Shown here piece after piece: positions 11,391 through 49,400 of a stretch of DNA of 64,000 bases. The translations under genes and the position numbers were made by a program. Source of the DNA: Incurvaria masculella (Eukaryota; Arthropoda; Insecta; Lepidoptera; Incurvariidae). The DNA is taken from NCBI GenBank assembly GCA_946894095.1, contig OX335644.1, positions 25,091,595 to 25,155,594 of the forward strand. The letters are read 5' to 3'. How positions within the stretch are numbered: position 1 is the stretch's first letter; each line of letters begins with the position of its first letter. The notes beneath the pieces are model-generated. The model was not told the DNA's origin. It did not search any database and saw nothing but the letters and a program-made list of their open reading frames with translations.

Positions 11391-11492
11391 GGTCACAAAA
11401 AGAAGTTTTTACTAAGATCCTATTTGAGTTTACAGTTAAATCTTCTTTGTTTCATCTACACATTCCGTTGTTCATTATAACATTATTTCAAC

Positions 11493-16988: not shown

Positions 16989-17245
16989 GTACTTTTGTGG
17001 ATACATAATATTAGCCCGTAAGTTTAGTTATGTTCTCTAATCGATTATCTATTAAATAATGCTTTGTGTTTCAAACTGTCTACCGACATATTTTTTTTTC
17101 ATTTTGTGATACAATTTGGATACGTTCACATTCATATATTTTCTTGTGTTTCTATGTGCGACTCTCCTATTCATATTACTTCAACTTTTAGAGTTCGCAC
17201 TTCCATACGTTTTTAAAATGCCTAGTCATTTTAAGGTGAGCGGCA

Positions 17246-20600: not shown

Positions 20601-22246
20601 GGGAGGTCACGACATTTTTGGTCACGACAAGGTAAATGGCTGAATCTGGGTTCGCATGTTAGAGACCAACCCTCTGATGCTAAATATATAGGTCTGCCCG
20701 TGCCAAGTGGTTGCGTTATCTAGATTGGCTATATAAAATAGATGCTGGTATGTACCTGCTAATGAATATACTGATTATCTGGAAACATTGATACCTATTA
20801 ATTATACAACAATAAACAGACGGTTGCTTAATTAAATACTTAAATATACCTAAAGTTATATGTGTAACCTAAATCGCCTATAACTACTAAATGCAACCAA
20901 AGATTTGTTCAGTTTTTGTATTGCTAAGCAAGTATGTATTGATACTTTCATGCTTCGTCATTTGCATACATTTACCTTATCATATGTATTTTTTGTCACC
21001 ATAACTACTTTTTCAGGCGCCTTATCTACGTAACGCAACCACTTGGAACAAGCAGACTGACACATTTAGCTTCAGAGGGTTGTACTTTATCCTGTGAACC
21101 CAGTTTCAGCCATTTACGTTATCGTTACCATTTTTGTCGCGACCTCCTAGTCTATAGGTGTTGTGGCTGCTGACGATGTAGTACTGGCTGAGCGGGCCGC
21201 CCGTCTCCCTCGCGCTCGCGCCTCCCGTCGACGGCGCGTCGTCCCCCTCTGGCGTCGTCAACTGACTGTCGGACGAGAGTTGGGAGGTCGACTCACCTGG
21301 CTGTACAGCTCGACACTGGACTCGCCCTTCAGCTGGTGGCCGGTGAGGTAGTATTCCGGGAGGTCACGACATTTTTGGTCACGACAAGGTAAATGGCTGA
21401 ATCTGGGTTCGCATGTTAGAGACCAACCCTCTGATGCTAAATATATAGGTCTGCCCGTGCCAAGTGGTTGCGTTATCTAGATTGGCTATATAAAATAGAT
21501 GCTGGTATGTACCTGCTAATGAATATACTGATTATCTGGAAACATTGATACCTATTAATTATACAACAATAAACAGACGGTTGCTTAATTAAATACTTAA
21601 ATATACCTAAAGTTATATGTGTAACCTAAATCGCCTATAACTACTAAATGCAACCAAAGATTTGTTCAGTTTTTGTATTGCTAAGCAAGTATGATTGATA
21701 CTTTCATGCTTCGTCATTTGCATCCATTTACCTTATCATATGTATTTTTTGTCACCATAACTACTTTTTCAGGCGCCTTATCTACGTAACGCAACCACTT
21801 GGAACAAGCAGACTGACACATTTAGCTTCAGAGGGTTGTACTTTATCCTGTGAACCCAGTTTCAGCCATTTACGTTATCGTTACCATTTTTGTCGCGACC
21901 TCCTAGTCTATAGGTGTTGTGGCTGCTGACGATGTAGTACTGGCTGAGCGGGCCGCCCGTCTCCCTCGCGCTCGCGCCTCCCGTCGACGGCGCGTCGTCC
22001 CCCTCTGGCGCCGTCGGCTGGCTGTCGGACGAGAGTTGGGAGGTCGACTCACCTGGCTGTACAGCTCGACACTGGACTCGCCCTTCAGCTGGTGGCCGGT
22101 GAGGTAGGTGTTGTGGCTGCTGGCGATGTAGTACTGGCTGAGCGGGCCGCCCATCTCCCTCGCGCTCGCGCCTCCCGTCGACGGCGCGTCGTCCCCCTCT
22201 GGCGCCGTCGGCTGGCTGTCGGACGAGAGTTGGGAGGTCGACTCAC

Positions 22247-22409
22247 CTGGCTGTACAGCTCGACACTGGACTCGCCCTTCAGCTGGTGGCCGGTGAGGTA
22301 GGTGTTGTGGCTGCTGGCGATGTAGTACTGGCTGAGCGGGCCGCCCATCTCCCTCGCGCTCGCGCCTCCCGTCGACGGCGCATCGTCCCCCTCTGGCGCC
22401 GTCGGCTGG
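22247..22409 (-). CDS. PLCE1: PLCE1 exon P: start of catalytic X box, source exon of the X array
   Basis: Encodes [15 protein letters not shown] and [20 protein letters not shown], then [16 protein letters not shown]; one base plus 54 codons. The His in SSHNTYL is the conserved catalytic His of PI-PLC X boxes and the adjacent Asn a Ca2+ ligand. The acceptor (GTCCGACAG) is the one that fits exon O's phase. Donor GTGAGT. The next exon (VLLQGCR...ELDCWD expected) is not found anywhere left of here in the window. Confidence 0.93.
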
Positions 22410-25400
22410 CTGTCGGACTAGATGCATCAGTTGGGAGTCCGTGAGTGGGGAAGCGATCTGATAAACTTTTCGGTCGTAGTCAGTTCTTGCAAGTTCAGTT
22501 AGTTAGTTATATCAGTTAGTAGTTAGTTAGTCTGGTGTTAAAATTATAAAGGTTATCTTAATACAATTGTAGAATTCCAAGAACCAGTGCAAGACCAGCC
22601 AATTTTATACCTTTAGATATTAAAACATATCGGACCAATCTAGCTATTCACTCTCCACTCGCCAGAATGTTTAAAAATTATAATAAGGGTTTTACTTTCT
22701 TCATTTTGCCCTCGTGAAAACAAGAAGATATTTCATTTTCTTTTATACAAAAGTTTTATTAGACTAGTCACTGAATATCCGTGTTTGTCTATTACTGATA
22801 TTGCATTCAGGCTAAATTGTAATGTATTTTTTCTAATATTAATGTTACACTGCGTTCCTAAATGCGTATATTGCAGAGATTGCTACAATTTATGTGTACA
22901 CGTTCGTTCCGAATTGCTTATATTCACTCCCGTGAACGTCATGTTGACATAAGGGACGTGACTTGAGACCGCACACAGATCGTGCAAAGCGCTCACGGTT
23001 GAGAGCATGTGCGCCGTGTACGCTGTCAAATGGCTGTCATCGAGCTGTCATTAATCGTGTTTATTTGTAGTTCTCTGATCGTATGCACTTGTATTCTGAA
23101 ATAACGAAGGCCTTTCGCCGTTTGTTAGTCTAGTTAGACAATTCGAGCCCTAAAATAACCACTATCGAGACTTACAAGGCATTTTCGAGGTAGTTAGGTT
23201 AGGCTCTGTCACATATGTCTGCTCTAATTCTTCCGATTTGATATCGTGCAATTGTGGCTATGAGCAGTGATATCAATTCGGAACACAAGTATTCACTGTA
23301 TTCTCTTTCTCTGCGATCCTTGCAATGTACGCATTTCGGAACAAAGGGTTAGAGTGGTAATTTTGTTATACATCTATATCAAATATGTTATTTTCTGCTT
23401 TGTATATACAGTATGGTCAATACGTTCATGGAAGACATTCTTATAGGAATTATGGTTACGGGTGGTCTGACCTGGGTGCAGTGTGCACTCTCCGCTGCTC
23501 TGGCACGAAGGCATAGTTGTCCTTATCGCTGAGGTATCTCACGAAACCCTCGAAAGACAGCCAGTTCTCGGCTCTCAGGGTGGGGTCGGGCTCGTGCCTC
23601 TGTGAACAAAACTCTAAGTGAGATTGGCTTCGAAATCACTAACAAAATGGTGGTTAGACAGTTAACTGCATTCGGAGTTATGATATTTTATCCTTAGCGA
23701 ATTAAAAAATGAACGGTTCGTCGGGCAATAAACTTCACAGGATTTTTTTTATACATTCACTTAGTCTAAAGTGTTTTCCACAACTTCACTTGTATCGCGC
23801 AGCATAAAATACCTTAAGAACGGCCCGTAAGCTATGCTCCCCATGCAAACGTAGTTTACTAATCATTTGGAAACCGCTATTCCAATTAAATTGATATTTA
23901 ATATCTAATATCAGGTAACAAATATCTGTGTCTGCATGCTTTTGTTTTTTTGAAAAATCCAAAGCGAATGAAATGAAAGCAAAAAGAAAATCTTCATACG
24001 AATTTGGTTTTCTCTGTGGTTTGACCCAGAATACATTCACCGAAAAAACGAAGACATGCAGACACAGATATTTGTAGCCTAATATTAGATACCGAATACC
24101 AAGTAAGTTGGAACAGTGGTTTTCAAATTATTAGTAAACTACGTTTGTATGGGAGGCGAAATTTTCTGATGCTTACGGGCCGACCTTAAAATCGCATTCT
24201 GTTGTCGTTGTTTCTGACAATCGTAACCACAATAAAGATAATACAATCGTCTATGTGGACAATATCTTGAATGAACTACCAGAGACAAACAACGAGTTAT
24301 TGGCAATGGAAATCTAAATCATAATCATTGTCCGTCTCTTCTCCGTTGCCTTCTTTCGGGCCGCCTTGTCCGCGGGCGGCTCCAGGTCCAGAGAGCCGTT
24401 GTTAGCAGACAACATAATTTCACAGCCATCACCTGAATGATGTCCTTCAGCTGCTGTTCCGTCTTGGTCTCGCGCTGCCTCGTCTCGCAGAACTTGCCGA
24501 GCGTGGGCAGCGTCAGCACCCGGCTGACGGTGCCGTCCGGGTGCCCGCCGCTCGGTAGCGCCGCAGCCGCTAGCAGGTCGAACGCCTTCTTGCGGGCCGC
24601 CTTGTCCGCGGGCGGCTCCAGGTCCAGATAGCCGTTGTTAGCAGACAATATAATTTCACAGCCATCACCTGAATGATGTCCTTCAGCTGCTGTTCCGTCT
24701 TGGTCTCGCGCTGCCTCGTCTCGCAGAACTTGCCGAGCGTGGGCAGCGTCAGCACCCGGCTGACGGTGCCGTCCGGGTGTCCGCCGCTCGGCAGCGCCGC
24801 AGCCGCTAGCAGGTCGAACGCCTTCTTGCGGGCCGCCTTGTCCGCGGGCGGCTCCAGGTCCAGATAGCCGTTGTTAGCAGACAACATAATTTCACAGCCA
24901 TCACCTGAATGATGTCCTTCAGCTGCTGTTCCGTCTTGGTCTCGCGCTGCCTCGTCTCGCAGAACTTGCCGAGCGTGGGCAGCGTCAGCACCCGGCTGAC
25001 GGTGCCGTCCGGGTGTCCGCCGCTCGGCAGCGCCGCAGCCGCTAGCAGGTCGAACGCCTTCTTCCGGGCCGCCTTGTCCGCGGGCGGCTCCAAGTCCAGA
25101 TAGCCGTTGTTAGCAGACAACATAATTTCACAGCCATCACCTGAATGATGTCCTTCAGCTGCTGTTCCGTCTTGGTCTCGCGCTGCCTCGTCTCGCAGAA
25201 CTTGCCGAGCGTGGGCAGCGTCAGCACCCGGCTGACGGTGCCGTCCGCGTGTCCGCCGCTCGGCAGCGCCGCAGCCGCTAGCAGGTCGAACGCCTTCTTC
25301 CGGGCCGCCTTGTCCGCGGGCGGCTCCAGGTCCAGGGAGCCGTTGCGGGTCAGGAGGCCTGGGGGGCGATTTAGGATCTCTCTTTATGTCTAGTCTTCGA

Positions 25401-28400: not shown

Positions 28401-31400
28401 CTCTTTATAATAAGCTAAACGAAGGGCACTCGAATCCGCGAGCACATTTCCTGTACATACCTGCCGGAGTGGTGCGAGGATGCCATGATACCGGTGGCGT
28501 GCGCCGTGAGGCTGCTGTGCCGCCCCTGCTGGTACGGCCTGTGTCCGCCCATCACCGCTGAGTAGGAGCTGCACACACAATCAGTATACTCTCTTAGGTA
28601 TTTTCTTTCCCCGTGCAAACTGCACCGCTCGGCAACATGTTGGATGGCGGGCATCTTTGAAGAGAAGGAAAGGCGAAGGGGCATGCGTCGTATGGTCAAA
28701 GTGACCATACAATTGTATGGGAATCCGGCGACGTGTCATATAACGCACATTTGAAACATCGGAACCGAGCGCGAATGTGCTCTAAAAATGCGTTCGTCTA
28801 GTCAGTTCTCACCCACAAAAACCCTCCAATATGCCCGCGACTATGTTTTTGAAAATTGAAGACAGTAGGTCTCACAGTAAACGTGCTAGATGGCACATCT
28901 CCTTGGCGGGTATAGTCTTTGCAAACAAGTGAAATTTGTCGTGACATGCACACGGACCATTTTCTAGGTCCGCAGAATCAGGAATCGTACAGTCAAGAAA
29001 GCCGCTTTTATAGCGGTTGTCAATGCGGTTTCCTCGCCGGAAAGGTACATGATTTCCGAGCACGGAATTCCAAGAATAGGCTTACTGCGTGCTGACAGGT
29101 AACGGAATAGAACAATGGATTGTTAGGCTGCGATCACACTTACCTGTGCCGCGCGGGCGAGTTCTGCATAGCCTCGTCGTCGCTTCGAGTGCCGGACCCG
29201 TGGCCGTGGCTGAAGGACTTGGGCGAGCAGCTCTTCAGCTCCGACGTAGATTTGTTCTTCTGGAACACACGGAGTGTTGATGTCATGTTAGGATTGGCTG
29301 TGTCCGCCGCTCGACGAAAAAGTCCGACGAACAAGAGAAGTTTCTTCCCAGAATTCTCTGATATTCAAACCCACTGCTCATCATCATCCCTCAGGCAATA
29401 AAGCGTGATAGTACGTATCTTTTAATACAACTAAATCAGAATCGGGTAAGAAGTTCTCAAGTTATAAACGAACAGGCTGACAGAAATACGGAAAAATGAC
29501 ACGGTTTATACAGTCTGTTTCTACAGGTACTGTCATGAACCTTGCTCAGTGGAACGTGCATCCATTATTCCTGTTCATCCAACCTATATTAAATTATTAT
29601 AATTAGGATAATTAGAGCACCCTTTTTTGGTTGACATTAGGTTTTTAAGAACGAATCGTTTTTCTGTCGCACAAGTTAGTGTAGTATAGTTAGTATGGTA
29701 GTAAAAGTAAAAAAAAACCGGCCAAGTGCGAGACGGACTCGCACACGAAGGGTTCCGTACCATCGTAAAAAAAAACACGTTTTTTGTATGGGAGCCCCCT
29801 TTAATTTTCATTATTTTTTAATCTTATCTATTTGTTGTTGTAGCCGCAAAATAAATACACACTCTGTGAAAATTTCAGCTGTCCACCTGTTCCGGTTACT
29901 GAGATACAGCCCTGCGACAGACGGACAGACGGACGGACGGACGGACGGACGGACAGCGGAGGCTTAGTAATAGGGTTCCGTTTTTACCCTTTGGGTACGG
30001 AACCCTAATAAAAAAACATTTATTGAGTAATAATGTACATACATAGTGAATACTATCCCCTGCACTAGTCTGTAGACTGTGCTGCAGAGAGCAGTGGACT
30101 GTTGATTTTTACACAGGTAAAGTTAGAGCAGATTTTAATGCACTAGTTCAGTTACATTGTTATTAGGTACATTATATTTATTTTCTACTATCTGTTAATA
30201 CTATGAAGTCCAAACAAACAACACAAGATAAACTATAAAACTACAACAAAAATAGCAAAAATAGCAGGTACCTAAGCGTTCTGTTTCATTACAAGAATAG
30301 AAGATAGAATAAGAGTGTGTTTTGTGTGTAAGGGTGTTAGGTTATTTGTGAGAGTGTGGTTGTATTTGTTATGTGGTATACGTGTGTTTTATGCATTTTA
30401 TGAGAGTATTTTTAGCACCTGCTCAGTTTCATCATAATTTTTCATGCATAACCAATTTTGTAGTGATTTCTGAAACTGTTTTCATGTCGCACTGAAGCAT
30501 TAGTTACCTTAAACTTAATGCAGGTTGCGTTCTTGATGGAGGCGCCGGTCGGGTGGTCGACGTGGTCGAGGGTTCCCTTCACCGGCGTGGAGTGCGCGGA
30601 GCCGCCGCCGCCGGCGCTGCCCGCCGCCGCCGTCCAGTCCCGTCCGCCGAACACCTGGATGTTTATGCGTTCTTTATAACAATAATAAGCCTTTATTGCT
30701 GTAACGTTCGGCGTCCGAAATTAAGGTCATGCGTCAGGTCAACACCGAGGATCCCTATGTGGTCGTCAATATGTAGAGTTGCTCCCTGGAAGGTCGGAAC
30801 ATTTAACTTTTTTAACTACCGGCAATCTGTCAGCCTCTGTGGCCCAGTGGCGCGACACTTCGGCGATCGCTCTCCGAAGTTAAGCAACGCTGGGTCCGGT
30901 CTGGTCTTGGATGGGTGACCATTCGATCGTTGAGAGAGGCTGGCCGTGGTTCGGATTCCACGTTAAGCTGTAGGTCCCCTTCCTTACTTACTAGGTGGTA
31001 GGGTTTATCCCGCCCGGGTTGGTACCATCGCATTGGATGAACGATGGTCGAAGCGGCAATGAAAATTGTCCGTGTTTTCCATCCAGTTCAATGTAGCCGT
31101 GCAATATAAGGAAGGTCCTGGCATGGCACCTAGTTCCCATGTGGTGTGTTGGGCTAATACCATGACAGAACTTGTGGTATTAGCCATCCATGTCCAGTCA
31201 CATAAAAAAAAAAATCTGTTTTATTCTTTTACAGCTTGTCCTACGACAAAGGCCTCCCTAAAGCTTTCCATTTTGTCCTGTCCTTTACAGTGCGTGTGCA
31301 TTCTGGGCCAGCATAAACATTCATAGGACGCAAATTCGATAGTCCTATAACACGACGAATTTGAATATCGATATTACACAAGAATTTCAACGTACATAGA

Positions 31401-34400
31401 TAGGACTATAAACACGATGTAATAACACATCCGAATAGGCTTACACTTGCATTTCCAACTAGATCTGGCTAACATAAGAAGACATGAATAAAATATGTCT
31501 CGATGTCCGATCACGCTATGCAGGCAGATGACCCATTTCCTGAGATGTACACTTTCCGATACAGTGCGTGTGAACTCACCCTTATCGCGTCCGAAACGAG
31601 CGGCTCGCAACAGCACTCGTCCTCGTAGTACAGCGCTGTGTATTTATCCTTCAGCCAGGCTAGACTCCGGTCCGCTAACTTGGCCTGTCCCATCAGCGCT
31701 CGGATCACGCTGTGTAGGCCGACGGCCCATATCCTAAGAGAACATTGTTAATTGTATGATTGACATTTTTGTGAATTTCGTGCCCATCGCCCATGTCATA
31801 TGTTACGTAAACTAGGAGATCCTAAAAGATAAATTCGGACGAAAGCCGTATAGGCGATCGCTGAGGAGTTCATTGTTTTTTACTGGATGGGCAAACATCC
31901 AGTTTTTTTTAGTAAACCAATCAAACAAATCTGCTTTCTAGCTGAAGCAAGATCGAGCTACAAGTACAATAGGCACTCTGATTTTTTTATATTTTATCAT
32001 TATCAATTCATTCAACGATCACAGTGTCAAATAACTGGCTAGAAACTTCGCTCTAAAACGTCCACTTAGTCTAAGTATACAAAAGCGTTTGCCACTGCAC
32101 TGCTGCACGTACGAGTTATTGCAAAAGAAATCATCAATTCATGATGTTCATGACAAATATAAGTTTATTTGCAAAGTAGAGCACATCTGCAGGTATGTAT
32201 ATATCTGTATATCAAAATATTGGTGACCTATGTATACGACGGTGTATACGCTGAAGATACGATGGGAGACCTATAACATGTTTGATAATGACGTTTCTGT
32301 CTTGGATTTAAACTTACTAAGCATTTCGTTAGCGACGCCATTTGTCCGTCGAATAATATGGAACCTCAAAGACGTTGGTCCGTCTTCATAAGGTCTGTAG
32401 GTAAGTACATCTAATTCCCAGCGGTATTTTCCGCCCACAATAGATCATTACCGAATTGTTATTGTAAATCGTCAAGGAACTAGTCAAAAGTTCCGACATT
32501 ACCTTGCTTTTACTCGATAAAAGCGATATAGACTAGGAGGTCGCGACAAAAATGGTAACGATAACGTAAATGACTGAAAGTGGGTTCACAGGATAAAGAC
32601 CAACCCTCTGAAGCTAAATGTGTCAGTCTGCCTGCGCCAAGTGGTTGCGTTACGTAAATAAGGCGCCTCAAAAAGTAATTATGAGGACAAACAATATATA
32701 TGATAAGGTAAATGGCTGCAGATAACGAGGTTTGAAAGTATCAGCACATACTTGCTTAGCAATACCAAAACGGAACAAATCTTTGGTTGCATTTCGTAGT
32801 TATAGGCGATTGAGGTTACGGATATAATTTTTAGTATATTTAATTATTGCATTAAAAAGGGACTGGTTATTGTTGTATTCTTAATAGATATCAATATTTC
32901 TAGACAATCCGTATATTTATCAGTAGGTAGTATGTAGGTACATACCAACATCTATTATATATTGACAATCTAGATAACGCAACCACTTGGCGCAGGCAGA
33001 CCGACATATTTAACATCAGAGGGTTGGTCTCTGACATGTGAACACAGATTCAGCCATTTACAGTATCGTGAACAAAAATGTCGTGACCTCCCGTAATAAT
33101 AAGGCTTAATGTTGTACTATCCCTTGAGAACACAGTCGTTCGTCGGCTTTGAGATTCCTGGGATCAATGTTATTTGTAACCTAGTTTAAGCAGTTGGTTA
33201 CAACTGCTTATCTGACTATTTATCTAACAAAAATCAGCGAAGTTTCTTGCCAGTTCTTCTTCGCCGTGAACGCTGAACTGGCTAATGATAAAATATGACA
33301 AATCCGAGTGCAGTGTGCTGCCTGTGGATGATGAATAAACAATAAACAACAACAATAAACAACAATACAATTTAGCCCAATATCAGTCCGTAACGACAAA
33401 AAGTAAAACTTTATTATTGGCTGTATAGTTTGTGTAGTTTAATTTTTTCAATATTGTTTAATTTAGCTGTTAAGTTTCTAAATAACGCAATAAATAAAAA
33501 AAATTGACCCGAGCGGAGCCGGGTACCTCAACTAGTACAATACAAATGCGAACGGTCGCCGCTGGCTGACCTGTAGAGCTGCGGCGGGAACAGCAGGTGC
33601 ACGGTGCGGTTGTCGCTGAGCGTGTTGCCGTACACGAGCGTGAGGCACTGCGCACCGTCCGGCGCCTGCGCGTCCAGCCCGAGCCGGCGCGCGCACGCCA
33701 GCATCTCCTGCAGCTCGCGCGCGTCCAGCGGCCGCCCGCCGAGCGCCATGTCCTTCACGGACTGCAGGTCGACGAACCTGCAAGAGGTGGGTCCCTGAAC
33801 CTGGTGGAAGGCACTCTGTACATGAAGAAAGGATATGCCTTTGTGGAGGACATGCGTGTAAAAAGTGGCCATTCAAATAGAGCAACTTGTTACGCTATGC
33901 CTCATGTCATCTCACAAATGCTAGCCTTTTTTAGTAGCCTTCAGAGTGCTGATTTATTTTAATCGACACTTAAAGGGCCTTTATTACTAAAGTGCTGATT
34001 ATCTTGCACCGATATTGATTGCAAGCTGCTAAGAAAGGCACTTAATATGTGGTGATTAAGCTTATCAGCAGTATGTGAAAAAGGCTCTTAGGGCCTCTTC
34101 CACCAAGTACTGATTAGCTTCATCTTCACATTAGAGGTATTATATTACCATCTCGCCAACGATACCAGTACAAGATAATCAGCAATTTAGTAATAAAAGT
34201 CAAAACCAGGCTAAGTCTGCTTGCCATTAGAGTTATAGTTTGTAATTTCCTATATGTACGTTTATTTTATGAAAATATATATTTTTCCATTTCATTTTAA
34301 AATATTTTTTAAGATACTTAATATTTTCTTTAGTTTTTAGTTTTTTATTTTTTTCTTTTGCCCGCCACACCGCACCTCTCCTACGTCTCTAAGGTTGAAT

Positions 34401-37400
34401 GTCAGAGAATGCCTCACGGCATTAATTCCGCCTTTTTGTGAACCATGCTTGCAGGCTTGCAAATAAAGATTTTTTTCATTTTCATTTCATTTCTGGGGAT
34501 TAATAGAAAAGATAGCTACGATAATGACTGTGCCGCCGTTAGAAACTCTTGCTATTTCTTGAACGGAATACAATTCTATCACTTTTTCAGTAGAGTTGGT
34601 AAGCTTTGTGCTACAATTGCTCCCTGCACAATTTATCCATAATATGAAGAGTAAATAAATGTATTCTCACCCTTCTTCTCCTACAACACCAGCTTCGTTT
34701 ATGTAGGCCATGTTTGCTGCATATTTCAGCGGAATCACTTCTTCAGGATTGTAGGAGAGACTGACTTCTGGTGGCTGGGTACCTTCTGAAGGTGTCTCGC
34801 CTGAAATCGGAAAGATTAATATAGACGTTTCAATTTTCAGCGCTTTTATTGATCAAGAAGGTATTTTATATGACAACGATATAACCTCTGACACTTCGAA
34901 TCTACCCACAGCTGCAATCTGACTACCTGACGTTGATATCTGAGAGGACGAAGTGTCAGAGGTCCTCACATCGCGAATTCTGAAGATGTCCACAGTGTGG
35001 TGGACGAAACGTCAAGCTAAATAAGTAAGCTGAACATTGTGTGCGCATATATAAATAATATAATTTTGGAACGGAAAGCCAATCTCTCGACCCTTGTCGT
35101 CAATGACTTTCCAAATGATGTATTTAGGCACGCAATGTAACGGTTCATCTGAACACGTTTGCACCGTTTTTTGACTAAATTCGTAAGGAGCGCTTTAGTT
35201 TCAGCGTAATTTTTTGTAGGAGTTACCTAAAGTGGGGATTTGATTGAATTGGCTATCATGAACTCTTTAGAAAATTAAAGGGTCGGTATGTCATTGGCTT
35301 TTGTGTTAGACTGGTTTATATGTCTAGGTTTCTCTTAATAATTTCGGCAGGACGTTATCATGGTACATTTTTAGGTTGTTAAATAACAAAAATAATAAAA
35401 CTCTTTATTCGGGTTAATTACTTTGATTATGACTTTACTATCGCTGCTTATTCAGGTTTTACTTTTATAACCGAGTCTGCGATATTTCTGATCAGGATAT
35501 ACGATTATTATGGCTCCACTCTGCCACAAATACATCCGGCTCGAAGGACTACATGGTCAGGGTTCACAATTAATGATGCCATAACAGACATCCGGCTCGA
35601 AGGACTACATCCAAGATATCTATATTAAATGGTCAGGGTTGACGATTAATGATGCCATAACAGACAACCGGCTCGAAGGTCCGCATCCGAGATTGCTGTA
35701 TTTCTTGTCAGGCTATATAATAACGGTGCAATAGAGAACCAGCTCGAGGAGCACAATCGAGTTTGCCATATTTCTGATCAGGCCTACGAGACATCCGGTT
35801 CGAAGGAATACAAAGTAAGATTTTTGCCTAGTCTTTACAATGAAGACGTCACATCAGATTAATTCGGCTCGAAGGAACACAAACGAGGTTGTTTTAATTC
35901 CAGTCAGGCTTCGAAATTATAAAATCCTGCTCGAAGGACCGCCGACGTACCGTGATGGTGCGGGCGCTCGGCGTGGCACGGCGGGCGGCACCACGCGAGT
36001 ACCGCGCAGCCGCGCTCCAGCCGCAGGTGCGCCTGCGCACCGCACCACTCCGCCTCCCACACCACGCACGCGGTGCCGTGGTGCATTATCTGTAACGAGG
36101 CCATCGAAGCATTAAGAGCCAACCGACAATACTTTTGATTATAGATAGAATTAGTGATATAACGATAGAAACTGCTTCACACCAAATTAGGCAAATAAAA
36201 TAAATATAAGTATAGTTAATTAAGATTCTAATTGCATTATAAAGTTTATAAAATAATTGGTAAGAATTATTATCTTTATATTATCTTTATAGTGACCAAA
36301 TTGAATTAGTGTGCAAATGCAATGTGCTAATGCGTTTATGGGTGTTAATTTTTAATTTGTTTAAAGTAGGTTTGAGCCAACTCGTAGAGCCAACGTAGTT
36401 TATGCGTGTATATTCCGCAATACTATTTGTCAGATTAATTTCAGAAAAAAACCGGCCAAGTGCGAGTCGGACTCGCACACGAAGGGTTCCGTACCATCGT
36501 AAAAAAAACTAAAAAAAACACGTTTTTTGTATGGGAGCCCCCTTTAATTTTAATTATTTTTTAATCTTACCTATTTGTTGTTATAGCGGCAAAATAAATA
36601 CACACTCTGTGAAAATTTCAGCTGTCTACCTGTTACGGTTACTGAGATACAGCCCTGTGACAGACGGACAGACGGACGGACGGACGGACAGCGGAGGCTT
36701 AGTAATAGGGTTCCGTTTTCACCCTTTGGGTACGGAACCCTAAAAATTCAACCCTGGCTATGAATCAATTTTCCAAAGTACGAATCATTCACAATTAGTG
36801 GGTTCGAGAACTACACTAACTTGTATTAAATTGTGGTCCAATGTAGTCAGCCTCAATAGCCCAGTGGCGCGACACTTCGGCGATCGCTCTCCGAAGTTAA
36901 GCAACGCTGGGTCCGGTCTGGTCTTGGATGGGTGACCATTCGACCGTTGAGAGAGGCTGGCCGTGGTTCGGATTCCACGTTAAACTGTAGGTCCCCTTCC
37001 TTACTTACTAGGTGGTAGGGTTAATCCCGCCCGGGTTGGTACCATCGCATTGAATGAACGATGGTCGAAGCGGCAATGAAAATTGTCCGTGTTTTCCATC
37101 CAGTTCAATGTAGCCGTGCAATACAAGGAAGGTCCTGGCATGGCACCTAGTTCCCATGTGGTGTGTTAGGCTAATACCATGACAGAAGGTGTGGTATTAG
37201 CCATCCATGTCCAGTCACATAAAAAAAAAGTAACTGACTTTTGATCAATGATCCAACGAACTTTCTAGCTTATAAGAAATGGTATTATAAAACGATTATA
37301 CTAAACTGTAACAACCCCATTTGTGACAAAGTTGTCACGAATGGTGTTCCACCACACAATCAACTTGTCAGAAAAGATGATCCAAGGATATTACTAAGTT

Positions 37401-40400
37401 GTTGCTATGGGTGATGAAAGTCGTTACGATTTTTTCACTAATCGTGGTCCCAGGAAATTACTAATTCGTTGTCACCAACATGCAACACCAAAAATAGTGT
37501 CTCAAGAAGATTTCTGTGACGTGATTTACTTGTTACATATGACGATGAAAGGACGTAACTACCTTGTCACAAATGGTGGTCCAACGACGTCACTAACCCG
37601 TTATTAGACGTAACTAGAAAGTTACTAACTTGTAACAAATGGTGGTCCAATCGGTCCGTATTCTGCGCCGCAAGCGGGAACATTGTGACGCCGTGATCGT
37701 GCGGCAAGGGTTGCACCGGACTGTAGCTGCCGCCTTCCAAGTCGTACAGCGCCTCGTTCTCGAAGTCGCAGCCGGCGGACTTGTGGCAGCCCTGCGCGGC
37801 GAACACGGGCTCGGCGCATGCGCACATCGACGCTCTGAAACAAGGGCAGCACTCTCTCGCTTGCGGGTCGAACATTTTCAAGCGTTACGAAATAGGAAGA
37901 TCGCTTGAGGCCCTCAAGCGATCTTCCTATTTCGTTCAAGTTGAGGGGAACTCACCTAACTAAAGTACGTGGTGGGGGAACTGACAATAAAGTAGAGTAT
38001 CTCTGCAGCGTATCTCCTCCAACGAATACACACACCATATAGGTATGATGGTAGGGATGACGGCGGTAAGAAAGCGTGGGGAGAGGGGTTAGATACTTGC
38101 GTAGCGAACTAGATACTCGTTATATATAATGTTCGGATGAGGTGATGGCAGGGTAGAGGCAGAAGCAATGGAGCTACGGATTTTTCGGAACACCGCTTGT
38201 GCCTGATGATTTTTCCTCTGCGATCATACCCGCATCCTTACTATTCTCAATAATGTTTCGGTCAATAAATAGTAAACAATGAACATTTCTCTCTATTTGC
38301 ACACGATAATCAAGAAGTTTCGCATCTATCGCGCTTGGCATTCACGCATACAATGACAATGTCAGTGACGTAAGAAAGCACTACTCTTCGTTAGTTTAAG
38401 TTTCATTACGACTGTCTATCTCAGCCTTAGTGTCGGTCCATATATGATTTTGTTTATTTAATGGAACTTGAAGCTGACATTCTACAGCGGTATTGTCTGT
38501 TCATCGAAAGACCAAAAATAAAACTTCCTTTCTCCTGTTGGTGGTTTATGCTTAATTTCTTCTTTTCTTCTTTCTTATTAAGGAGATGAAGAGGTATTTG
38601 TAACTGTATATTGCACGCCGTTTCTCTCGCTATTCTACCTTTCCCGATAAGTAATAAAAACGCGACGACTCATTTGTTCGCATTAGGCTCTCCCCAAACG
38701 TGTTGGCACACCCCCGCGCACCTCTACGTCCCCGCTGACCTAATATTTGCTATGTGGCCTGCTGTTCTTCACTCACCGGAGGTGGTCGGAGAAGTTGGAC
38801 GCTCTGCTCCGGCAGAGGGCGTGGTGGTGCTGGTGGAAGGAGGCGATGTGGTCCATGACGGCCTGCGTGCGGTACACCTGCAGGTCTACACTCACCGGAG
38901 TTGGTCGGAGAAGTTGGGCGCGCTGCTCCGGCAGAGGGCGTGGTGGTGCTGGTGAAAGGAGGCGATGTGGTCCATGACGGCCTGCGTGCGGTACACCTGC
39001 AGGTCTACACTCACCGGAGGTGGTCGGAGAAGTTGGGCGCGCTGCTCCGGTAGAGGGCGTGGTGGTGCTGGTGGAAGGAGGCGATGTGGTCCATGACGGC
39101 CTGCGTGCGGTACACCTGCAGGTCTACACTCACCGGAGGTGGTCGGAGAAGTTGGGCGCGCTGCTCCGGCAGAGGGCGTGGTGGTGCTGGTGGAAGGAGG
39201 CGATGTGGTCCATGACGGCCTGCGTGCGGTACACCTGCAGGTCTACACTCACCGGAGGTGGTCGGAGAAGTTGGGCGCGCTGCTCCGGCAGAGGGCGTGG
39301 TGGTGCTGGTGGAAGGAGGCGATGTGGTCCATGACGGCCTGCGTGCGGTACACCTGCAGGTCTACACTCACCGGAGGTGGTCGGAGAAGTTGGGCGCGCT
39401 GCTCCGGCAGAGGGCGTGGTGGTGCTGGTGGAAGGAGGCGATGTGGTCCATGACGGCCTGCGTGCGGTACACCTGCAGGTCTACACTCACCGGAGGTGGT
39501 CGGAGAAGTTGGGCGCGCTGCTCCGGCAGAGGGCGTGGTGGTGCTGGTGGAAGGAGGCGATGTGGTCCATGACGGCCTGCGTGCGGTACACCTGCAGGTC
39601 TACACTCACCGGAGGTGGTCGGAGAAGTTGGGCGCGCTGCTCCGGCAGAGGGCGTGGTGGTGCTGGTGGAAGGAGGCGATGTGGTCCATGACGGCCTGCG
39701 TGCGGTACACCTGCAGGTCTACACTCACCGGAGGTGGTCGGAGAAGTTGGGCGCGCTGCTCCGGCAGAGGGCGTGGTGGTGCTGGTGGAAGGAGGCGATG
39801 TGGTCCATGACGGCCTGCGTGCGGTACACCTGCAGGTCTACACTCACCGGAGGTGGTCGGAGAAGTTGGGCGCGCTGCTCCGGCAGAGGGCGTGGTGGTG
39901 CTGGTGGAAGGAGGCGATGTGGTCCATGACGGCCTGCGTGCGGTACACCTGCAGGTCTACACTCACCGGAGGTGGTCGGAGAAGTTGGGCGCGCTGCTCC
40001 GGCAGAGGGCGTGGTGGTGCTGGTGGAAGGAGGCGATGTGGTCCATGACGGCCTGCGTGCGGTACACCTGCAGGTCTACACTCACCGGAGGTGGTCGGAG
40101 AAGTTGGGCGCGCTGCTCCGGCAGAGGGCGTGGTGGTGCTGGTGGAAGGAGGCGATGTGGTCCATGACGGCCTGCGTGCGGTACACCTGCAGGTCTACAC
40201 TCACCGGAGGTGGTCGGAGAAGTTGGGCGCGCTGCTCCGGCAGAGGGCGTGGTGGTGCTGGTGGAAGGAGGCGATGTGGTCCATGACGGCCTGCGTGCGG
40301 TACACCTGCAGGTCTACACTCACCGGAGGTGGTCGGAGAAGTTGGGCGCGCTGCTCCGGCAGAGGGCGTGGTGGTGCTGGTGGAAGGAGGCGATGTGGTC

Positions 40401-43400
40401 CATGACGGCCTGCGTGCGGTACACCTGCAGGTCTACACTCACCGGAGGTGGTCGGAGAAGTTGGGCGCGCTGCTCCGGCAGAGGGCGTGGTGGTGCTGGT
40501 GGAAGGAGGCGATGTGGTCCATGACGGCCTGCGTGCGGTACACCTGCAGGTCTACACTCACCGGAGGTGGTCGGAGAAGTTGGGCGCGCTGCTCCGGCAG
40601 AGGGCGTGGTGGTGCTGGTGGAAGGAGGCGATGTGGTCCATGACGGCCTGCGTGCGGTACACCTGCAGGTCTACACTCACCGGAGGTGGTCGGAGAAGTT
40701 GGGCGCGCTGCTCCGGCAGAGGGCGTGGTGGTGCTGGTGGAAGGAGGCGATGTGGTCCATGACGGCCTGCGTGCGGTACACCTGCAGGTCTACACTCACC
40801 GGAGGTGGTCGGAGAAGTTGGGCGCGCTGCTCCGGCAGAGGGCGTGGTGGTGCTGGTGGAAGGAGGCGATGTGGTCCATGACGGCCTGCGTGCGGTACAC
40901 CTGCAGGTCTACACTCACCGGAGGTGGTCGGAGAAGTTGGGCGCGCTGCTCCGGCAGAGGGTGTGGTGGTGCTGGTGGAAGGAGGCGATGTGGTCCATGA
41001 CGGCCTGCGTGCGGTACACCTGCAGGTCTACACTCACCGGAGGTGGTCCGAGAAGTTGGGCGCGCTGCTCCGGCAGAGGGCGTGGTGGTGCTGGTGGAAG
41101 GAGGCGATGTGGTCCATGACGGCCTGCGTGCGGTACACCTGCAGGTCTACACTCACCGGAGGTGGTCGGAGAAGTTGGGCGCGCTGCTCCGGCAGAGGGC
41201 GTGGTGGTGCTGGTGGAAGGAGGCGATGTGGTCCATGACGGCCTGCGTGCGGTACACCTGCAGGTCTACACTCACCGGAGGTGGTCGGAGAAGTTGGGCG
41301 CGCTGCTCCGGCAGAGGGCGTGGTGGTGCTGGTGGAAGGAGGCGATGTGGTCCATGACGGCCTGCGTGCGGTACACCTGCAGGTCTACACTCACCGGAGG
41401 TGGTCGGAGAAGTTGGGCGCGCTGCTCCGGCAGAGGGCGTGGTGGTGCTGGTGGAAGGAGGCGATATGGTCCATGACGGCCTGCGTGCGGTACACCTGCA
41501 GGTCTACACTCACCGGAGGTGGTCGGAGAAGTTGGGCGCGCTGCTCCGGCAGAGGGCGTGGTGGTGCTGGTGGAAGGAGGCGATGTGGTCCATGACGGCC
41601 TGCGTGCGGTACACCTGCAGGTCTACACTCACCGGAGGTGGTCGGAGAAGTTGGGCGCGCTGCTCCGGCAGAGGGCGTGGTGGTGCTGGTGGAAGGAGGC
41701 GATGTGGTCCATGACGGCCTGCGTGCGGTACACCTGCAGGTCTACACTCACCGGAGGTGGTCGGAGAAGTTGGGCGCGCTGCTCCGGCAGAGGGCGTGGT
41801 GGTGCTGGTGGAAGGAGGCGATGTGGTCCATGACGGCCTGCGTGCGGTACACCTGCAGGTCTACACTCACCGGAGGTGGTCGGAGAAGTTGGGCGCGCTG
41901 CTCCGGCAGAGGGCGTGGTGGTGCTGGTGGAAGGAGGCGATGTGGTCCATGACGGCCTGCGTGCGGTACACCTGCAGGTCTACACTCACCGGAGGTGGTC
42001 GGAGAAGTTGGGCGCGCTGCTCCGGCAGAGGGCGTGGTGGTGCTGGTGGAAGGAGGCGATGTGGTCCATGACGGCCTGCGTGCGGTACACCTGCAGGTCT
42101 ACACTCACCGGAGGTGGTCGGAGAAGTTGGGCGCGCTGCTCCGGCAGAGAGCGTGGTGGTGCTGGTGGAAGGAGGCGATGTGGTCCATGACGGCCTGCGT
42201 GCGGTACACCTGCAGGTCTACACTCACCGGAGGTGGTCGGAGAAGTTGGGCGCGCTGCTCCGGCAGAGAGCGTGGTGGTGCTGGTGGAAGGAGGCGATGT
42301 GGTCCATGACGGCCTGCGTGCGGTACACCTGCAGGTCTACACTCACCGGAGGTGGTCGGAGAAGTTGGGCGCGCTGCTCCGGCAGAGGGCGTGGTGGTGC
42401 TGGTGGAAGGAGGCGATGTGGTCCATGACGGCCTGCGTGCGGTACACCTGCAGGTCTACACTCACCGGAGGTGGTCGGAGAAGTTGGGCGCGCTGCTCCG
42501 GCAGAGGGCGTGGTGGTGCTGGTGGAAGGAGGCGATGTGGTCCATGACGGCCTGCGTGCGGTACACCTGCAGGTCTACACTCACCGGAGGTGGTCGGAGA
42601 AGTTGGGCGCGCTGCTCCGGCAGAGGGCGTGGTGGTGCTGGTGGAAGGAGGCGATGTGGTCCATGACGGCCTGCGTGCGGTACACCTGCAGGTCTACACT
42701 CACCGGAGGTGGTCGGAGAAGTTGGGCGCGCTGCTCCGGCAGAGGGCGTGGTGGTGCTGGTGGAAGGAGGCGATGTGGTTCATGACGGCCTGCGTGCGGT
42801 ACACCTGCAGGTCTACACTCACCGGAGGTGGTCGGAGAAGTTGGGCGCGCTGCTCCGGCAGAGGGCGTGGTGTTGCTGGTGGAAGGAGGCGATGTGGTCC
42901 ATGACGGCCTGCGTGCGGTACACCTGCAGGTCTACACTCACCGGAGGTGGTCGGAGAAGTTGGGCGCGCTGCTCCGGCAGAGGGCGTGGTGGTGCTGGTG
43001 GAAGGAGGCGATGTGGTCCATGACGGCCTGCGTGCGGTACACCTGCAGGTCTACACTCACCGGAGGTGGTCGGAGAAGTTGGGCGCGCTGCTCCGGCAGA
43101 GGGCGTGGTGGTGCTGGTGGAAGGAGGCGATGTGGTCCATGACGGCCTGCGTGCGGTACACCTGCAGGTCTACACTCACCGGAGGTGGTCGGAGAAGTTG
43201 GGCGCGCTGCTCCGGCAGAGAGCGTGGTGGTGCTGGTGGAAGGAGGCGATGTGGTCCATGACGGCCTGCGTGCGGTACACCTGCAGGTCTACACTCACCG
43301 GAGGTGGTCGGAGAAGTTGGGCGCGCTGCTCCGGCAGAGAGCGTGGTGGTGCTGGTGGAAGGAGGCGATGTGGTCCATGACGGCCTGCGTGCGGTACACC

Positions 43401-46400
43401 TGCAGGTCTACACTCACCGGAGGTGGTCGGAGAAGTTGGGCGCGCTGCTCCGGCAGAGAGCGTGGTGGTGCTGGTGGAAGGAGGCGATGTGGTCCATGAC
43501 GGCCTGCGTGCGGTACACCTGCAGGTCTACACTCACCGGAGGTGGTCGGAGAAGTTGGGCGCGCTGCTCCGGCAGAGGGCGTGGTGGTGCTGGTGGAAGG
43601 AGGCGATGTGGTCCATGACGGCCTGCGTGCGGTACACCTGCAGGTCTACACTCACCGGAGGTGGTCGGAGAAGTTGGGCGCGCTGCTCCGGCAGAGAGCG
43701 TGGTGGTGCTGGTGGAAGGAGGCGATGTGGTCCATGACGGCCTGCGTGCGGTACACCTGCAGGTCTACACTCACCGGAGGTGGTCGGAGAAGTTGGGCGC
43801 GCTGCTCCGGCAGAGAGCGTGGTTGTGCTGGTGGAAGGAGGCGATGTGGTCCATGACGGCCTGCGTGCGGTACACCTGCAGGTCTACACTCACCGGAGGT
43901 GGTCGGAGAAGTTGGGCGCGCTGCTCCGGCAGAGAGCGTGGTGGTGCTGGTGGAAGGAGGCGATGTGGTCCATGACGGCCTGCGTGCGGTACACCTGCAG
44001 GTCTACACTCACCGGAGGTGGTCGGAGAAGTTGGGCGCGCTGCTCCGGCAGAGAGCGTGGTGGTGCTGGTGGAAGGAGGCGATGTGGTCCATGACGGCCT
44101 GCGTGCGGTACACCTGCAGGTCTACACTCACCGGAGGTGGTCGGAGAAGTTGGGCGCGCTGCTCCGGCAGAGAGCGTGGTGGTGCTGGTGGAAGGAGGCG
44201 ATGTGGTCCATGACGGCCTGCGTGCGGTACACCTGCAGGTCTACACTCACCGGAGGTGGTCGGAGAAGTTGGGCGCGCTGCTCCGGCAGAGAGCGTGGTG
44301 GTGCTGGTGGAAGGAGGCGATGTGGTCCATGACGGCCTGCGTGCGGTACACCTGCAGGTCTACACTCACCGGAGGTGGTCGGAGAAGTTGGGCGCGCTGC
44401 TCCGGCAGAGAGCGTGGTGGTGCTGGTGGAAGGAGGCGATGTGGTCCATGACGGCCTGCGTGCGGTACACCTGCAGGTCTACACTCACCGGAGGTGGTCG
44501 GAGAAGTTGGGCGCGCTGCTCCGGCAGAGAGCGTGGTGGTGCTGGTGGAAGGAGGCGATGTGGTCCATGACGGCCTGCGTGCGGTACACCTGCAGGTCTA
44601 CACTCACCGGAGGTGGTCGGAGAAGTTGGGCGCGCTGCTCCGGCAGAGAGCGTGGTGGTGCTGGTGGAAGGAGGCGATGTGGTCCATGACGGCCTGCGTG
44701 CGGTACACCTGCAGGTCTACACTCACCGGAGGTGGTCGGAGAAGTTGGGCGCGCTGCTCCGGCAGAGAGCGTGGTGGTGCTGGTGGAAGGAGGCGATGTG
44801 GTCCATGACGGCCTGCGTGCGGTACACCTGCAGGTCTACACTCACCGGAGGTGGTCGGAGAAGTTGGGCGCGCTGCTCCGGCAGAGAGCGTGGTGGTGCT
44901 GGTGGAAGGAGGCGATGTGGTCCATGACGGCCTGCGTGCGGTACACCTGCAGGTCTACACTCACCGGAGGTGGTCGGAGAAGTTGGGCGCGCTGCTCCGG
45001 CAGAGAGCGTGGTGGTGCTGGTGGAAGGAGGCGATGTGGTCCATGACGGCCTGCGTGCGGTACACCTGCAGGTCTACACTCACCGGAGGTGGTCGGAGAA
45101 GTTGGGCGCGCTGCTCCGGCAGAGAGCGTGGTGGTGCTGGTGGAAGGAGGCGATGTGGTCCATGACGGCCTGCGTGCGGTACACCTGCAGGTCTACACTC
45201 ACCGGAGGTGGTCGGAGAAGTTGGGCGCGCTGCTCCGGCAGAGGGCGTGGTGGTGCTGGTGGAAGGAGGCGATGTGGTACATGACGGCCTGCGTGCGGTA
45301 CACCTGCAGGTCTACACTCACCGGAGGTGGTCGGAGAAGTTGGGCGCGCTGCTCCGGCAGAGGGCGTGGTGGTGCTGGTGGAAGGAGGCGACGTGGTCCA
45401 TGACGGCCTGCGTGCGGTACACCTGCAGGTCTACACTCACCGGAGGTGGTCGGAGAAGTTGGGCGCGCTGCTCCGGCAGAGGGCGTGGTGGTGCTGGTGG
45501 AAGGAGGCGACGTGGTCCATGACGGCCTGCGTGCGGTACACCTGCAGGTCTACACTCACCGGAGGTGATCGGAGAAGTTGGGCGCGCTGCTCCGGCAGAG
45601 GGCGTGGTGGTGCTGGTGGAAGGAGGTGACGTGGTCCATGACGGCCTGCGTGCGGTACACCTGCAGGTCTACACTCACCGGAGGTGGTCGGAGAAGTTGG
45701 GCGCGCTGCTCCGGCAGAGGGCGTGGTGGTGCTGGTGGAAGGAGGTGACGTGGTCCATGACGGCCTGCGTGCGGTACACCTGCAGGTCTACACTCACCGG
45801 AGGTGGTCGGAGAAGTTGGGCGCGCTGCTCCGGCAGAGGGCGTGGTGGTGCTGGTGGAAGGAGGCGATGTGGTCCATGACGGCCTGCGTGCGGTACACCT
45901 GCAGGTCTACACTCACCGGAGGTGGTCGGAGAAGTTGGGCGCGCTACTCCGGCAGAGGGCGTGGTGGTGCTGGTGGAAGGAGGCGATGTGGTCCATGACG
46001 GCCTGCGTGCGGTACACCTGCAGGTCTACACTCACCGGAGGTGGTCGGAGAAGTTGGGCGCGCTGCTCCGGCAGAGGGCGTGGTGGTGCTGGTGGAAGGA
46101 GGCGACGTGGTCCATGACGGCCTGCGTGCGGTACACCTGCAGGTCTACACTCACCGGAGGTGGTCGGAGAAGTTGGGCGCGCTGCTCCGGCAGAGGGCGT
46201 GGTGGTGCTGGTGGAAGGAGGCGACGTGGTCCATGACGGCCTGCGTGCGGTACACCTGCAGGTCTACACTCACCGGAGGTGATCGGAGAAGTTGGGCGCG
46301 CTGCTCCGGCAGAGGGCGTGGTGGTGCTGGTGGAAGGAGGTGACGTGGTCCATGACGGCCTGCGTGCGGTACACCTGCAGGTCTACACTCACCGGAGGTG

Positions 46401-49400
46401 GTCGGAGAAGTTGGGCGCGCTGCTCCGGCAGAGGGCGTGGTGGTGCTGGTGGAAGGAGGTGACGTGGTCCATGACGGCCTGCGTGCGGTACACCTGCAGG
46501 TCTACACTCACCGGAGGTGGTCGGAGAAGTTGGGCGCGCTGCTCCGGCAGAGGGCGTGGTGGTGCTGGTGGAAGGAGGCGATGTGGTCCATGACGGCCTG
46601 CGTGCGGTACACCTGCAGGTCTACACTCACCGGAGGTGGTCGGAGAAGTTGGGCGCGCTACTCCGGCAGAGGGCGTGGTGGTGCTGGTGGAAGGAGGCGA
46701 TGTGGTCCATGACGGCCTGCGTGCGGTACACCTTCTCCAGGTTGACGGGAGCCTCGGAGCCGACTCGCCGCCAGCCGACGCCGCCCTCTCCGTCTTCGCC
46801 CTCCTCCTCGAACGAGGCGATGTACTGGAAGAGATGAAAAAGTCATGATCGAGGGAAGATTGTTGCGGTCATCACCGATTGGTACCTATGGCAGAATGTT
46901 TTGAAATATTTGTTAAGCGCGGCATATGATGCACGCCAGGACCTTACATAATGGGTGCTCAACGACGCCCATAGGCCCTCGAACTATCACGGCGGTAGCG
47001 GAAACTATGCCGGTCAGCCAGGTGCTTCTTCACACCATGTTTAAAGGAACCTAGGTGTTACTTCTGGCGGAATTGTACATATACCTACGGTACTTATAAA
47101 CTGCTTGTTTTGTCTTATTTAATACATTTTATAAGCGCGAAGCCATATTGCCACTGCTGCCAGACGGACGGACAGCGGAGCCTTAGTAGTAGGGACCCGT
47201 TTGCACCCATTGGATACGGAACTCTAAAATTCAGAAATAACACTGTCGGTCACCGAGGGCGCATTCTACTCCGCTCCGATCGGTTTATTGTCCAAAACTA
47301 CATTGACCCTAGTGGAGATCTAGTTTCTAGTCTCCGTTAGAATTATAACCGGACATACACACACACACACATACACTCACCACTTGCCGGCCGGAGTCGC
47401 CGGGCGGGCGCGCGTCCTTCCTGGCGGCGTCCCGCGGGCTCCCGCCGCCCGTGTCCCGCTTGCTCTCCCTGCGGGACGCATCCTTCCGCAGGCTCTCTCT
47501 GCAATGGGGATCTCACGTTAAGGTGGCCCAACCCGCTCATCTCCCCATACAAAAGGGGAAAGAAGATCACGCCCATATTTCTTGTCAGATATCCCCAATT
47601 TTGCTCAAAATAGCTTTATTCGATCGAACTAGATGTCTGATGACCATTGGCATTGTAAAATTGTGTTTGGTTTCCAAGTTATAAGGTCCGAAAGTTCGAA
47701 TTTTTTGCGCGTTTTATACAATAACTTTGGAGGTGGATAACGCAATGATAAAGTAAGAACATCGTAAAAATATTAGTCATCAGACATAGCTTATTTAATC
47801 AAGATTTATGATCTATTTGGTTTTTGTTAGATTTTTGACTACAGCGGTCGTGGTTTACTTTTAGCTATAAGTCGTTTTGAAATTAAAATTTTCGTAAATC
47901 TTACCAAATGATACACTATGCACATTGTCTTTTTTGTGGACAAGTTGCATCTGCCTCATCACGGAACCTGTCTTATTCTTTGAAACCGAGAAGGTCCCAG
48001 AGCGCAACAGCACGGTTTTGTACCGTGCCCGCGAACGAGTTAGGCCCGCCGGGCTATCGTCAGCCGTGTTGAAGCAATACAGCGGGCGTGGAAGGGGCAG
48101 GAGGAGCGATCGAAACTATAACGGCAGCGTAGCCACGAGTTAGTGGAAAACGTCCAACTGTAGTTAGTTGCTTAAAAAATCGGGACGCTTAAAATCTCAA
48201 TCCTGGATCTGTTGATTTGGATCCCTGGAGCTGCGTAGGTTAGTCTAGAACGGACATTTCATTTCAATTCATTTCATTTATTTATTCAACTTCAGGTAGT
48301 AAAACTACACTAAGTCATGTCCCAATTTGATTGATCCGCGGATTCGATCAACCATTGAAGAAGAACCCGCAAAGAAACTTCACTGGTCTATAAATTATGT
48401 TTTTTTTTGTCTTTTTTTGCGTCCACATAAATGATATAACACAATTATGATTTCATACCTAAATGCTACTGCCAAACTTACATTGGTAGAACGGTCTAAA
48501 GCGAAGAACTAAGAACTACGAGGAAACAACAACCCACAATGTGAAAAGTCTTAATTAATAAATAAATTACTTAACTTAATAACCTATGAAACATAGGTTT
48601 CATAGGTTCTCAGTTTCGCTCGTAGTGGCCTCCAGGCTCAACATCAACATCAACATCCCTCTGCGGGTGATTGTCGAAGCCGGGCGGTACGTCAGGAATT
48701 ACGTTAGCGCCCACGATTTGCAAATTCCTCGGTGGAAGACTTCGTCGCGAAGCTCTCGAGTCGCATGTTCGAGCACGCTGACGCCTCGCCTCACCGTCAC
48801 CTGGTTAAAATGGCTCCCCGGCATGCAAGACCACCCGACGGGCGAGCTGCTGGAGGACTTCTAACCACAGAACAATTAGGAGGTAAGAATTGTGAAGTGG
48901 GCGGAACCCGCGCGCTTGTCTTTAGCGGGGACCCGCGCACTTCATACGCGCATGATTCACTCCTCTGCGGCGTTCCTGTGCATTAACTTATCTGTGATAA
49001 AATCTAAAATTGAAAAGGAGTAATGCCGTACTGTGCCATAACAACGTGTAAACGCGACAGCCGGGTGCACAACCTTCATAATGGCGGAGTTTCATATCAC
49101 CGGTTAGTTACATGTATAGCGATAAAATTTACAACAAAAACACTACGAAACAATATGGCGTCGCGGCGTCGCTTTGCTTTCCGGGTCATGTCTCGCTACT
49201 CTGTTAGTGACTGCGTGCGTGTGAGGCGCTCGGCCGTGTTCGAAAGTGACGTAACATTTGATTGCAAACAGTATTGGACTTCCAACATAGATCCATTACG
49301 TTAAGGTTCACATTAACTGAACAAATGTGGATTTGTTGTTTGGTTATTAATTAAGAAGGGATAGCCAATTGCGACGGTTATACATCCGCGAAGCAAAAAG

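Follow-up and report, generated by a model that had tools for sequence, protein, structure and literature searches.

What makes several exons of one gene stand, each with its 5' splice site, at the head of tandem arrays of their own 3' ends, and how does the gene bear it? The question is raised by a 64,000-nucleotide stretch of the genome of the moth Incurvaria masculella (contig OX335644.1, positions 25,091,595 to 25,155,594, hereafter the window), which was assigned to a phospholipase C epsilon (PLC-epsilon) gene in an original prediction made from the letters alone. The assignment was confirmed by matches to PDB 9ax5 and 6pmp and to PF00388, and by the 16 exons of the window, on the minus strand, which once joined yield 788 codons with zero stops and GT-AG at every intron; the closest protein matches are lepidopteran PLC-epsilon, with that of Plutella xylostella at the top (62%). 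In the reading that we favour, with a probability of about 0.55, the arrays are the outcome of ordinary tandem duplication on a local scale, filtered by splicing, and need no special machinery. The analysis is based on one assembly of 552 Mb in 31 contigs, of which approximately 262 kb was examined beyond the window. The letter e indicates window exons, x the whole-gene exon set and L other loci or cases.

The predicted units of 119, 236 and 194 bp were all found, with donors in all three arrays and the copy numbers given in table 1, and the boundaries proposed for the exons concerned (e3, e14 and e16) agree with those re-derived here. The 119-bp array shows 67 unit starts, all spaced by exactly 119 nt, with a GTGAGT donor in 66 of the 66 units between them. 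Its variants are grouped in blocks, units 7–12 being a repeat of units 1–6, and its distal unit is the most diverged. The variant C72T is present only in unit 1, which is the end of e3 itself, and in unit 7, which, along with the block pattern, leads to the conclusion that the exon end takes part in the turnover of the array. Homogenised units, blocks and diverged edges, as in minisatellite and satellite turnover, are thus seen in the 119-bp array (blocks and last unit) and in the 757-bp array described below (diverged edge). Read-through beyond the e3 donor meets an immediate TGA. Of the variants of the e3 array 6/15 are synonymous (26% expected, P = 0.18), so that there is no sign of coding constraint on the copies. 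The 236-bp unit consists of 205 nt of e14 and 31 nt of intron. Copies of both e3 and e14 begin within the exon, and short words shared at the joints were read by eye as AGG and CAACGG, respectively; a scan of viral contigs for the 119-bp joint gave no match.

The 194-bp unit contains the entire e16 with 13–16 nt ahead of its acceptor and 18 nt beyond its donor. The exon is 163 nt long, which is not a multiple of three (nor are seven of the eight nominal unit lengths), and its copies retain the AG. The idea that they had lost it was rejected, since the e15/e16 frame places the true acceptor 8 nt further in (22409), where it is retained. The 757-bp array was also predicted correctly as to its presence, but its extent is far larger than had been proposed, in two parts split by a retrotransposon, which together with e16's own donor contain 10 donor copies in total. 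The interrupting element, which resembles a miniature inverted-repeat transposable element (MITE), is approximately 560 bp long with 124-bp inverted ends, and has further copies at 32527–33101 and 56771–57316; single copies elsewhere are approximately 86% alike. The retrotransposon, of the BEL/Pao type, has one long open frame, which matches Peptidase_A17, RVT and integrase, and, from its sequence, looks young. A strongly diverged e16 copy lies at the far edge, and the e16 duplication therefore looks old, despite the similarity of most units. The probable sequence is insertion of the MITE-like element into one 194-bp unit, amplification of the 757-bp composite and, last, splitting of the array by the BEL/Pao element.

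Two weaker repeats had been proposed to start at a donor. For e4 the proposal stands, with exon end and donor lying inside the unit: three matches to the end-plus-donor repeat were found in the next 1000 bp, against a mean of 0.01 in 500 shuffles, and e4 is the fourth exon-end-plus-donor case in the window, an old one. For e5 it fails, as the repeat starts at most some 10 nt past the donor, and a junction search over the 16 window exons found no copy of the donor or acceptor junction of e5. In the same search four exons had extra donor junctions (66, 2, 3 and 9), each of them on the downstream side, and e16 alone had extra acceptor junctions (10). Units made of the 3' exon end and its GT donor, as in an exon–donor variable number tandem repeat (VNTR), are found at e3, e4, e14 and e16; with no e5 junction copies, the count is 4 of 16 exons rather than the five originally claimed.

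By using 100 kb of flanking sequence on each side and full-length relatives as guides, 20 further PLC-epsilon exons were located, so that 36 were tested in total (some outer boundaries, chiefly those of x1, x31, x33 and x36, are uncertain). Copies were found for 9/36 exons, and for 5/20 outside the window. They lie downstream of x2 (31 donor-containing copies), x3 (3), e3 (66), e4 (1 in this whole-gene test), e14 (3) and x30, where the copy ends short of the donor; at both ends of e16; and on the upstream side of x21 and x1. A gene-specific effect was considered and dropped, as copies are also present in kinases, kinesins and neighbouring genes. In the latter, 3 of 26 predicted coding segments, by eye one SNRNP200-like (helicase) and two ferritin-like, have downstream exon copies, all ending before the donor. 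None of the six CSTF1-like segments has exon copies; this WD-repeat gene, named by eye, lies inside a PLC-epsilon intron on the opposite (+) strand, at window-relative −1331 to 6758.

In a kinase-domain search (137 matches; 128/629 candidates scored), clearly overlapping tandem matches were observed at two places, with units of 138–150 and 139–140 bp and the donor exact in 7 and 6 places, the exon's own included, within the fetched stretch; a third overlapping pair shares one open frame (C5:18902926 and 18903556). The myosin search (77 matches; 65/129 candidates scored) gave an overlapping pair on C15 that contains stops, and one trio of same-range matches (C4:6754006–6755170), which we assume to be probably alternative exons. 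As controls, 36 kinase/myosin exons at 30 loci were used, ten of the loci being hand-chosen and the other twenty drawn from a consecutive run of 25 table rows after omission of five that had long open frames; copies were found for 2/36 exons by a strict and 3/36 by a loose count, plus a weak upstream case (L052). For kinesins, all 108 candidates were scored, and the 95 matches were resolved, by our own count, into 80 exons and 15 tandem copies, with 5/80 exons having copies, all downstream; a further overlapping pair on C19 has stops inside. In L062 (C4:11941001–11941900) a kinesin exon is duplicated whole, with a 45-nt acceptor-like spacer and a 249-nt exon part in frame, and from its sequence may possibly be a genuine alternative exon. 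L059 (C20:15987301–15988400) is nested: a short copy, 4 nt beyond the donor, comes first and is followed by an array of 237-bp units whose spacer is 134 nt.

Over all cases, copies are downstream in 17 (x2, x3, e3, e4, e14, x30, the SNRNP200-like and two ferritin segments, L026, L027, L036, L041 and L058–L061), span both ends in two (e16 and L062) and are upstream in four (x1, x21, L035 and L052). The resulting bias of 17:4 (P = 0.007) is 13:4 without the kinesins (P = 0.049) and 6:2 for PLC-epsilon alone (P = 0.29), in a tally that pools different searches, some of them aimed at arrays, and includes the weak L036 (36 bp) and L052 (57 bp) and five downstream copies that stop short of the donor (x30, SNRNP200-like, the two ferritin segments and L036). 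Strict one-sidedness was dropped after the upstream copies of x21 and x1 were found; the claim that the repeat always lies downstream is valid in the window but not over the whole gene. The length of intron included in the unit is short. It was at most 41 nt in 11 of the first 12 units measured (e4, 45 nt; the 4 nt obtained for L027 come from an alignment of 72% that over-runs) and, with L041 (approx. 97 nt or more, by eye), in 11/13 against 4.16 expected for evenly placed units (P = 5e-5). For the five kinesin arrays, with the expectation fixed beforehand, the values were 26, 134, 19, 22 and 45 nt, so that 3/5 fit against 1.08 expected (P = 0.067). Overall, 14 of the 18 units measured, L036 not being among them, have an intronic part of at most 41 nt against 5.24 expected (P = 1e-5). 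Copies containing an acceptor (e16 and x21) begin 13–17 nt before the AG. The proposal of several independent expansions, each with an exon end and its donor, is thus upheld, with a downstream excess that extends beyond the gene.

These arrays must be viewed against a background rich in tandem events, 37 in 264 kb, 28 of which do not touch PLC-epsilon exons; at the kinase/myosin loci the density is about half (4 events in 53 kb). A local copy was present for 78/400 random non-exon segments of 160 bp and for 11/36 PLC-epsilon exons (P = 0.09). In rotation tests, in which the counts include an event at x4 that concerns the flanking intron only (x4 is in no exon-copy tally), 9 PLC-epsilon exons were touched against 5.56 expected (P = 0.16), though the events touching them were 9 against 3.56 (P = 0.002); for 62 coding segments, with a null that includes the exon arrays themselves, there were 11 events where 6.09 were expected (P = 0.02), and the 11 exons touched compare with 9.27 expected (P = 0.34). 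The statement that so many affected exons are hard to call chance was therefore too strong. Comparison with the kinase/myosin controls does not give a clearly higher frequency in PLC-epsilon (8/36 versus 2/36, P = 0.085; 9/36 versus 3/36, P = 0.11), a gene picked for its arrays and with detection that differed between gene sets. Exons with copies are slightly longer (188 versus 161 nt, P = 0.04). The exon arrays are a modest local excess and not an exon-only phenomenon.

It had also been stated that no system of this kind was known, which is wrong in kind. The 31-bp VNTR of human CBS, c.1444_1467+7(16_21), at the exon 13/intron 13 border, is, by its coordinates, a tandem repeat of 24 nt of exon end and the first 7 intron bases, GT included, in a functional gene, as in the moth (PMC2630376, PMC5188458, PMC1395315). 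It differs in having 31 bp, 16–21 copies and one exon, whereas in the moth the units are approximately 33–294 bp long, copies number as many as 67, and several exons of one gene, as well as other genes, are involved. The review PMC5188458 labels the repeat as non-coding, at odds with its coordinates, and reports lower CBS activity with more repeats. Also in CBS, 844ins68 is described as a harmless duplication on the upstream side (PMC2630376, in which the term 'splice donor' is used although the junction specified is an acceptor); it resembles upstream-side moth cases such as x21, but is a single duplication. Intron gain has in common with the moth arrays that exonic DNA is duplicated in tandem along with splice signals; in the moth, however, no new intron is evident, the spacers at e3, e14 and e16 being 16–31 nt and the frame through the first donors unchanged. 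That tandem duplication can create introns is reported in PMC4974935, and Rogers (1989) and Hellsten (2011) are works cited for it. Duplicated alternative exons are tandem exon copies too, but keep both splice sites and the frame, as only L062 appears to do among the arrays read: the copies of e3 and e14 have their start within the exon, and those of e16 start 13–16 nt before the AG and carry 163 nt, out of frame. A literature search on donor-spanning arrays and exon duplication, mostly outside subscription papers, found only the CBS and intron-gain reports. With respect to the CBS type, what is new is the larger units, the up to 67 copies and the many exons, and a short-spacer tendency was not found described in the literature searched.

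According to the proposal of ordinary duplication filtered by splicing, local tandem duplication, frequent in the region, would now and then take in part of an exon, and the product would be kept only if one full exon retains working splice sites and the extra copies are unspliceable. A copy with exon sequence and a strong donor would need just an acceptor to become a harmful pseudo-exon. Tolerated copies would therefore have a donor but no usable acceptor, or an acceptor AG with too little intron upstream. Spacers of 16–33 nt are too short for splicing; as they leave no room for a branch point, a pyrimidine tract and an AG, they cannot supply the acceptor, and the 13–17 nt of upstream intron in acceptor-bearing copies are probably too little for a branch point. 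Downstream copies would be more readily tolerated, as transcription reaches the authentic donor before them, while an upstream pseudo-acceptor precedes the real one. The first donor would be used and the array spliced out as intron, unit number then drifting through unequal exchange. What is seen in the DNA is the short words shared at the joints, the block-homogenised arrays and the exon itself in turnover. The 788-residue frame that stays open through the first donors would be consistent with a normal main messenger RNA. Exons that were not selected for arrays are rarely hit (the kinase/myosin and kinesin fractions above), compared with approximately 15% by rotation (9.27/62), and L062, the sole duplicate with a longer, acceptor-like spacer, has its exon part in frame.

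Several observations weigh against this proposal. Two arrays have long spacers (L041 and L059), and 844ins68, described as harmless, implies that upstream copies are not always bad. A matched 5-mer model on 23 untouched exons gave sides of 269:248 and spacers of at most 38 nt in 10% only; as it predicts near-equal sides and long spacers, the filter must be strong. Furthermore, a pure filter predicts depletion of events at PLC-epsilon exons rather than the excess found by rotation, and PLC-epsilon exons have copies more often than kinesin exons (9/36 versus 5/80, P = 0.010).

A rival explanation is a mutational process that recognises exons and duplicates DNA beside 5' splice sites, for example where RNA polymerase would pause approximately 20–30 nt past a donor just emerging from it, with template switching back to the exon. 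This would account for the spacer more directly than a filter, as most of the arrays measured, in unrelated genes, have unit ends that cluster 16–33 nt beyond the donor, and it would agree with the downstream excess and the event-level enrichment at PLC-epsilon exons. We nevertheless regard it as rather unlikely, by taking into account the upstream cases, the common intronic arrays, the rarity of hits in exons not chosen for arrays, the two long-spacer exceptions and a prospective spacer check that was fulfilled in just three of five arrays. Its extension to a process of the moth lineage that recognises exons during transcription or splicing, duplicates the exon core with some 16–33 nt past the donor and seeds donor-anchored satellites in many genes is, in our view, unlikely. 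The suggestion of a process tied to exon/donor DNA is thus unsupported, given the four upstream cases and the 28 events off PLC-epsilon exons, as well as an exon GC content of 0.654 with and 0.658 without copies. The latter value also bears on R-loops at GC-rich exons, one of the drivers originally suggested: eight units have 54–69% GC against 35–50% over most of the window when the 119-bp array is set aside, but their coding-strand GC skew is −0.29 to +0.09 and some large intronic arrays are AT-rich (e.g. 75 bp × 89), making this a very unlikely cause.

That the copies have a function, as alternative exons, decoy exons or arrays of U1 sites tuning expression, is improbable. The donor is retained in all the spaced units of the 119-bp array, and the reported association of CBS repeat number with lower activity (PMC5188458) would fit; on the other hand, units are mostly out of frame, the e3 array shows no coding constraint and no full acceptor is present. 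An assembly artefact appears most improbable of all. Near-identical long arrays are where assemblers fail, and a single assembly was used, but ordered variant blocks, diverged edge units, a retrotransposon within one array, old degenerate examples and the same form on several contigs speak against it; array copy numbers in the assembly may still be wrong.

Table 1. Exons, arrays and associated elements of the PLC-epsilon locus, in window coordinates (LTR, long terminal repeat).
Feature	Position	Strand	Remarks
Exon e3	46631..46824	-	final 101 nt form unit 1 of the 119-bp array
119-bp array	38758..46733	-	67 copies
Exon e4	37630..37834	-	final 21 nt and donor belong to a unit of the degenerate repeat
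Degenerate ~33/66-bp minisatellite	36790..37650	-	from e4 end; a dispersed repeat interrupts it at 36846-37229
Exon e5	35951..36089	-	
Degenerate ~70-76-bp intronic repeat	35534..35947	-	begins at most ~10 nt past e5 donor; not an exon-donor array
Exon e14	25141..25358	-	
236-bp array	24348..25345	-	4.2 copies, 4 donors, last copy truncated
Exon e16	22247..22409	-	start of PI-PLC X domain
194-bp array	21911..22422	-	2.6 copies
757-bp composite array, proximal part	17674..22107	-	194-bp exon unit interrupted by ~560-bp MITE-like element
BEL/Pao-type retrotransposon	10302..17674	+	LTRs 10302-10730 and 17246-17674 (99.77% alike); frame 11481-16985
757-bp composite array, distal part	8565..10303	-	
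e16 copy at distal edge	8469..8630	-	strongly diverged, frame still open though intronic; oldest-looking unit

Other repeats are present in the introns and around them. An AT-rich 75-bp satellite of approximately 89 copies lies in a PLC-epsilon intron (L022–L023, window-relative 127517–134206), and no exon match was found for it. A perfect run of ten AACCT units is found at 51481–51530 within an intron; we take it to be the insect telomere unit TTAGG read on the other strand. A dispersed repeat of approximately 380 bp, which by eye resembles a 5S-derived short interspersed nuclear element, occurs at 1746–2127, 30828–31214, 36846–37229, 55510–55872, 57625–58001 and other positions; an Rfam search gave no match at gathering thresholds, including none for this repeat.

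The arrays show the extent to which a working gene tolerates duplicated splice signals, one exon being followed by a series of as many as 67 donors that are nearly identical. Provided that splicing invariably takes the first of the donors, the arrays would represent natural competition experiments on splice-site choice and on the silence of pseudo-exons. The regular shortness of the spacer beyond the donor can be counted and could serve to distinguish selection by splicing from targeted mutation, and the exon ends that belong to active arrays may evolve through exchange with their intronic copies.

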